Below, in pieces: positions 1,187 to 1,731 of a stretch of DNA of 23,706 nucleotides (its first letter is position 1; every line of letters starts with the position of its first letter). Source of the DNA: a virus; the IMG/VR virus record IMGVR_UViG_3300031957_002783, positions 1-23,706 of that record; one strand, given 5' to 3'. The notes under the pieces were generated by a model, which worked only from the letters and a program-made list of their open reading frames with translations, had not been told where the DNA came from and did not search any database. The position numbers and the translations under genes were made by a program.

Positions 1187-1345
1187 TCAAAAGCCCTCAA
1201 TACCCAATTCGCGCAGGTCTTCATCTGTGAAGTCATCCGCGTCGACGCGATCCTTTTTCGCCCCATGCGCCGCATTCCATCCGTCGCGGCAGGCCATGAA
1301 TTCCCAAAGGCTCATTTTGTTGATGTCTGAAGGGGTGAAGCCCAT
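1187..1345 (-). CDS. Tail assembly chaperone, distal frame (likely reached by -1 frameshift)
   Basis: A 52-codon frame beginning MGFTPSDINKMSLWEFMACR, with the MslWEFmA core typical of short phage tail assembly chaperones that follow a GTA-gp10-type protein. It starts on an ATG that overlaps the stop of the preceding frame (TGATG). However, the same frame is open further upstream to 1423. It encodes LWQFSKLYGAGAVMGF just before the ATG, which completes the family domain but has no start codon of its own. I infer that the main product is a fusion to the upstream frame by -1 slippage, as for lambda G and GT. Stand-alone initiation at the ATG is the alternative. The tape-measure gene follows immediately. 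Confidence 0.75.
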   Translation of the reverse strand: MGFTPSDINKMSLWEFMACRDGWNAAHGAKKDRVDADDFTDEDLRELGIEGF

Positions 1346-1731
1346 CACGGCCCCGGCTCCGTAGAGTTTGGAGAACTGCCAGAGTCCGCTACCGGCTTCA
1401 CCCCCGCGCCCTCCCCCACCGGGTCATCAGCCTCACCGATCAGCGCAGCGGCCAGAACCTGATAGGCAGGCAGCTTCAGCGCGAACGCAGGGTGTTGATC
1501 GAACGCCCGGCGCACCATCGGCCCGGCCTCTTTGGCATCCATACCCGCGCCGATCAAACCAAGGCGCAGAACCTCAAAGATGTCATCGACCATCCACGAC
1601 CCGACCTTCAGCCGCGTCAGGATCAGTTCAGGCCCGGCATCGCAGTTCTTCTGCAGCGCCCGCAGTTCACCGATGTTCAGAGCGAAATCATGTTCGCCCT
1701 GAACCCAGTTGATGGTCACCTTGTTGTGCAT
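1345..1731 (-). CDS. Tail tube-associated chaperone, GTA-gp10-like
   Basis: A 128-residue protein beginning MHNKVTINWVQGEHDFALNI. The order (GEHDFALNIGELRALQK, then a helical middle with LKVGSWMVDDIFEVLRLGLIG split over residues 40-62) is that of the gp10 family of Rhodobacter gene transfer agents, classed with phage tail assembly chaperones. In siphophages such proteins hold the tape measure and help polymerise the tube; they are not in the virion. The last ~25 residues are Gly/Pro/Ser-rich and look unfolded. This is exactly where the -1 frame carries conserved coding, so the 128-aa form is probably the unshifted product. Start and stop overlap both neighbours by one base (TGATG), indicating coupled translation. 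Confidence 0.8.
   Translation of the reverse strand: MHNKVTINWVQGEHDFALNIGELRALQKNCDAGPELILTRLKVGSWMVDDIFEVLRLGLIGAGMDAKEAGPMVRRAFDQHPAFALKLPAYQVLAAALIGEADDPVGEGAGVKPVADSGSSPNSTEPGP

Follow-up and report, generated by a model that had tools for sequence, protein, structure and literature searches.

The window analysed here, a 23,706-nt stretch of viral DNA, holds two small overlapping reading frames near one end, and the locus raises the question of whether these are two separate genes or a single gene whose ribosomes sometimes change frame. A preliminary description of the sequence had proposed a programmed -1 frameshift between them, and all of its coordinates and sequence features were found in the window. 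The comparison with relatives described below strongly supports that proposal, and it is very probable that, through a programmed -1 frameshift, a single start codon serves for both tail-assembly chaperones.

The source record is viral and the structural genes of the window are on the minus strand, in the order terminase, portal, protease, capsid, connectors, major tail protein, chaperone pair and tape-measure-like ORF. The major tail protein gene (2183-1731; phrog_13196, E 1e-49) lies directly upstream of the first frame of the pair (1731-1345), which codes for a GTA-gp10-like protein of 128 aa, the putative counterpart of lambda gpG. This product matched PF11836 (GTA-gp10 / Phage_TAC_11) with an E value of 1.4e-18 and 67.2 bits, above the curated cut-off of 27.8, and phrog_8985 with an E value of 9e-38. 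The second frame is in the -1 relation to the gp10-like gene and, as described earlier, is open up to 1423, where it begins after a TGA; it closes with a TGA (1189-1187), and its translation in between includes ...GLWQFSKLYGAGAVMGFTPSDINKMSLWEFMA.... The part of it that would be added after the slip, the counterpart of lambda T, comprises 74 residues (1411-1187), was predicted by AlphaFold2 as a helical domain and is in the conserved -1 frame in 96/100 clusters of relatives. The predicted fusion is 181 aa long from a slip at either of two runs of five G residues (1417-1413 and 1405-1401), the length given in the preliminary description. Searches by sequence and by fold found no relatives of solved structure for either domain. 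Downstream follows the start of a long coiled-coil-like ORF in the tape-measure position (1184-1, running off the window), identified from its translation; annotated relative phages carry a tape-measure annotation at the same place and share the order of major tail protein, chaperone pair and tape measure. The tape-measure-like ORF opens with three similar tandem stretches of the form KE.....F..L..S.DPA.AAQ.R, with a repeat unit of about 70 residues.

Protein-guided scanning for relatives covered viral contigs, bacterial genomes and phage records, and loci were kept where both parts of the pair were found. This gave 148 loci, the window included and some fetched repeatedly. At 90% identity they formed 100 clusters, and at 70% they formed 75. 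Prophages of Rhodobacterales, for example one in Donghicola eburneus, are nearest to the window, and the host of the window phage would be Rhodobacterales-type bacteria; further relatives include Rhizobium phages such as 16-3 and loci from Paracoccus, Microvirga, Agrobacterium and others. The distal part was in the -1 frame in 96 of the 100 clusters, fused in frame in four and in the +1 frame in none, so the frame relation is more than chance. The in-frame fusions are L024 (Rhizobium phage RHph_X2_26), L139 (Bartonella tamiae), L117 (Paracoccus cavernae) and L009. L024 and L139 are without the heptamer described below, the L117 fusion may reflect a 1-nt assembly difference, and L009 is without half of the gp10 domain. 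The predicted fold of the Bartonella tamiae fusion consists of two domains joined by a low-confidence linker at the position of the slip.

The predicted slip site is the first G run, read as the in-frame heptamer G_GGG_GAG (1417-1411), at which the P-site Gly codon GGG would re-pair on GGG and the A-site Glu codon GAG on GGA. Under the strict pattern X_XXY_YYZ, the GGGGGAG of the window re-pairs in the A site only through a G-U middle pair. An in-frame heptamer was found just past the end of the PF11836 domain, in most cases by one to three codons, in 94 of the 96 clusters with the -1 relation (GGGGGAG in 50, GGGAAAR in 24, AAAAAAR in 10, GGGGGAA in 9 and GGGAAAC in 1). As background, the gp10 bodies of these loci and their other long ORFs contained 20 such heptamers in 57,277 codons, which means that about 1 in 80 loci would have a chance heptamer in a 35-codon stretch. 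Relatives L016, L018 and L100 carry the canonical lambda-type GGGAAAG or GGGAAAA at the same position in place of GGGGGAG. In three others the frame-0 stop comes directly after the heptamer (CCG GGG GAG TAG in L098 and L099, GTG GGG GAG TGA in L040), which fixes the slip to the heptamer. The two -1 clusters with no recognisable heptamer, L097 and L108 from IMG/VR, have CCG ATT GCR GAG at the expected place. The bare motif GGGGGAR, seen twice on the two strands of the window against 7.9 expected, is not a rare one; the evidence lies in its in-frame position and its conservation.

The preliminary description had named both G5 runs as slip sites and recommended looking for them in relatives, which separated the two. 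The second run (GCG GGG GTG, with the G residues at 1405-1401) also permits P-site re-pairing as G_GGG_G and is kept in close relatives, and a slip there, or at both runs, would give the same fusion length. Conservation as a slippery site is confined to the first run; the second is in frame in just 26 of the 94 relatives, its A-site GTG cannot re-pair on GGT, and relatives L040, L098 and L099 reach their frame-0 stop before any second run. It also belongs to a predicted stem. The second run was thus discarded as a slip site, and a frameshift at it or at both runs is very unlikely.

Signals of the kind that stimulate frameshifting flank the first run on both sides. Upstream, separated from the heptamer by 13 nt, is a Shine-Dalgarno-like GAGG (1434-1431); the spacing reported for stimulation of -1 frameshifting is 9-14 nt (PMC5009743). 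Shine-Dalgarno-like tetramers were present 6-22 nt upstream of the heptamer in 49 of the 94 relatives (52%), with a peak at 13-14 nt, compared with 7% of control windows. Downstream, after a 5-nt spacer GGCGC (1410-1406), GGGGGUGAAGCC (1405-1394) and GGCUUCACCCCU (1342-1331) form a predicted 12-bp hairpin, of which the 5' arm contains the second G5 run and the 3' arm codes for GFTP. A 90-nt segment including the hairpin had a minimum free energy of -47.5 kcal/mol and a z score of -4.2. A shorter, 60-nt downstream segment gave a z score of +0.67, but the 3' arm lies beyond its end, so the stem of the window was missed. The second G5 run is most likely the 5' arm of this predicted stimulatory hairpin and not a slip site.

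In 12 close relatives, pairing of the window-type stem reached 88.9%, against no more than 68% after sliding; a covariation test on them found five pairs that vary in one arm only, mostly without loss of pairing, and did not exceed shuffles. Across the 94 relatives, the downstream pairing probability was 0.37 at +5, climbed to 0.94 at +9 and was down again by +17, with shuffled sequence staying near 0.6 from +5 to +10. The stem began at +4 to +8 in 66/94 relatives against 30/94 shuffled sequences, with a peak 6 nt after the heptamer. Which 3' partner is used depends on the subgroup: relatives near the window pair with GFTP codons and many Rhizobiales phages with RFAA codons, and short local hairpins form elsewhere. 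By this comparison of predicted stems, the conserved feature is the stem onset and not the 3' partner. In 26 clusters that were picked for pairing, the stem pairs +6 to +16 with the RFAA codons and own arms scored 9.96 against 7.31 for swapped arms, a match that is only suggestive in a class chosen in this way. A search of Rfam gave no significant match.

A different reading is that the distal ORF is a separate gene, started at its own ATG (1345-1343) by termination-reinitiation, with the -1 reading upstream of it incidental. This ATG overlaps the frame-0 TGA as TGATG and has a GGAG 11 nt before it; phrog_18467 and the annotated p016 of phage 16-3 begin at the same Met, and in related hosts the g10.1 genes of true GTAs seem to be translated from starts of their own. 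As claimed earlier, the only start codons that precede the conserved core in the window are a GTG (1348-1346) and this ATG. The earlier description had also proposed that the alignment be extended upstream of the ATG, where relatives with a start codon or without similarity would speak against a fusion. Similarity continued upstream in nearly all relatives, and it was the -1 frame that was preferentially conserved: over the 16 codons before VMGF, this frame scored 2.07 BLOSUM per residue with 43% identity, compared with 0.46 for frame 0 and 0.57 for +1. In at least 34 of 88 relative clusters, the stretch from the slip site to the vicinity of the SLWEF core contains no ATG, GTG or TTG, since the Met position of VMGF is often taken by I, L, V or A, and the ATG at 1345 is not conserved as a start among relatives. 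In the AlphaFold2 model of the -1 frame of the window, residues 17-27 form a confident helix, the first predicted, which ends at the ATG-encoded Met, so that a start at 1345 would remove it. On this conservation and the predicted structure, the residues upstream of the ATG are real protein, and the Met at 1345 is most likely an internal residue of the fusion. The conserved upstream residues, the startless relatives and the heptamer in 94/96 clusters led us to reject a separate start at 1345 as the principal route and make the separate-gene reading highly improbable, while some internal re-initiation at TGATG may occur in the window.

The same distal frame would result if RNA polymerase slipped at the G5 run and produced mRNAs with an added G, and a homopolymer is indeed present there. 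Five G residues are short for RNA-polymerase slippage, however, and relatives carry GGGAAAR at the same place together with Shine-Dalgarno-like and stem signals that act on ribosomes, which leaves transcriptional slippage extremely improbable. A sequencing error or the decay of one original gene, for which a 1-nt change that would join the frames and the four in-frame fusions could be cited, is refuted by the breadth of conservation, with an identical -1 offset in 96 clusters from isolates and metagenomes, and its probability is practically negligible.

Under a programmed -1 frameshift at the first G run, most ribosomes would translate the gp10-like gene as far as the stop at 1345, releasing the 128-residue protein. 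A minority would pause at GGGGGAG (1417-1411), aided by the pairing of the upstream GAGG with 16S rRNA and by the 12-bp hairpin 5 nt downstream, slip one base backward and read on to 1187, which would give the 181-residue fusion with its extra helical domain. The slip at the first run would leave the junction peptide VGEGRGGEAGSGLWQF. By analogy with lambda gpG and gpGT, the short product would serve to coat the tape-measure protein, and tail-tube subunits would be brought in by the long product, the rarer of the two. Comparison among relatives supports reading the two frames as a fusion, the location of the slip and the signals that would stimulate it, and from the sequences we infer the slip itself, its efficiency and the chaperone role.

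Tail-chaperone frameshifting is classic from lambda G/GT (Xu 2004, as reviewed in PMC5009743), and the window agrees with that arrangement, as had been suggested, in gene order, -1 overlap and slippery site: the pair lies between the major tail protein and the tape measure, the downstream frame has no conserved start, the slip would occur near the end of the first frame, and several relatives carry lambda's own GGGAAAG. Unlike lambda, the first domain is of the PF11836 type with no Pfam match to the lambda families, and the heptamer is GGGGGAG with Shine-Dalgarno-like and stem-loop signals. The description of this slippery sequence as unusual did not hold, since GGGGGAA is already documented for tail chaperones (PMC10885494, PMC5506516). 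It is reported for about a thousand tail chaperones of actinobacteriophages, for which the same argument of G-U re-pairing in the A site was made (PMC10885494), and it was proposed for corynephage phi16 together with a GAGG and a pseudoknot (PMC5506516). The window shares five G followed by A with these 'fivetwo' actinobacteriophage chaperones and with phi16, and with phi16 also the GAGG and a downstream RNA structure; it differs in the G at the third base of the A site and in its alphaproteobacterial hosts, and the likeness rests on the slippery signal. The three-part signal of Shine-Dalgarno-like sequence, heptamer and 11-12 bp stem-loop resembles that of E. coli dnaX, where in contrast the heptamer is A_AAA_AAG and the product is truncated instead of extended.

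The first protein is a PF11836 homologue as in g10/g10.1 of RcGTA, in whose literature g10 and its neighbour are two chaperone genes (PMC11409702). The window pair differs from the RcGTA type, treated here as a class without frameshifting, in having the heptamer and the conserved upstream residues. Three GTA-type g10 copies from Rhodobacterales genomes (L152-L154), a small sample, were without the heptamer, and their second gene appears to use its own start, in a variable frame relation. Frameshifts are mentioned for tail chaperones of Rhodobacter phages (PMC8601537), and a literature search of partial coverage found no report of frameshifting in PF11836/GTA-gp10 phages.

The mechanism is thus the known one of phage lambda, of which this phage, judged from sequence, is a further and well-supported example. 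Across a large set of phages of alphaproteobacteria, the PF11836 gene and the small ORF downstream of it can be read as a chaperone pair of the G/GT type, an arrangement common to about a hundred related phage lineages. The natural swaps between GGGGGAG, GGGAAAR and AAAAAAR, together with the in-frame fusions, provide a comparative series for trade-offs among slip site, Shine-Dalgarno-like signal and stem. We suggest tentatively that GTA-gp10-type phages may carry a near-universal three-part cassette, with GGGGGAG as a highly conserved default interchangeable with GGGAAAR, and that domesticated GTAs lost it and use separate starts; if so, a phage that became a GTA would be recognisable by its loss of frameshift control.

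Annotation in the phage records inspected either gives the two frames as unlinked genes, 'tail tube' and 'hypothetical', or omits the second one, as in AP-16-3 (L021), where the distal frame has no annotation. The second proteins in databases are truncated and start at the internal Met of VMGF, as in PHROG 18467 and p016 of phage 16-3 (L020, 2501-2698). The exception is RHph_X2_26, with its in-frame fusion.
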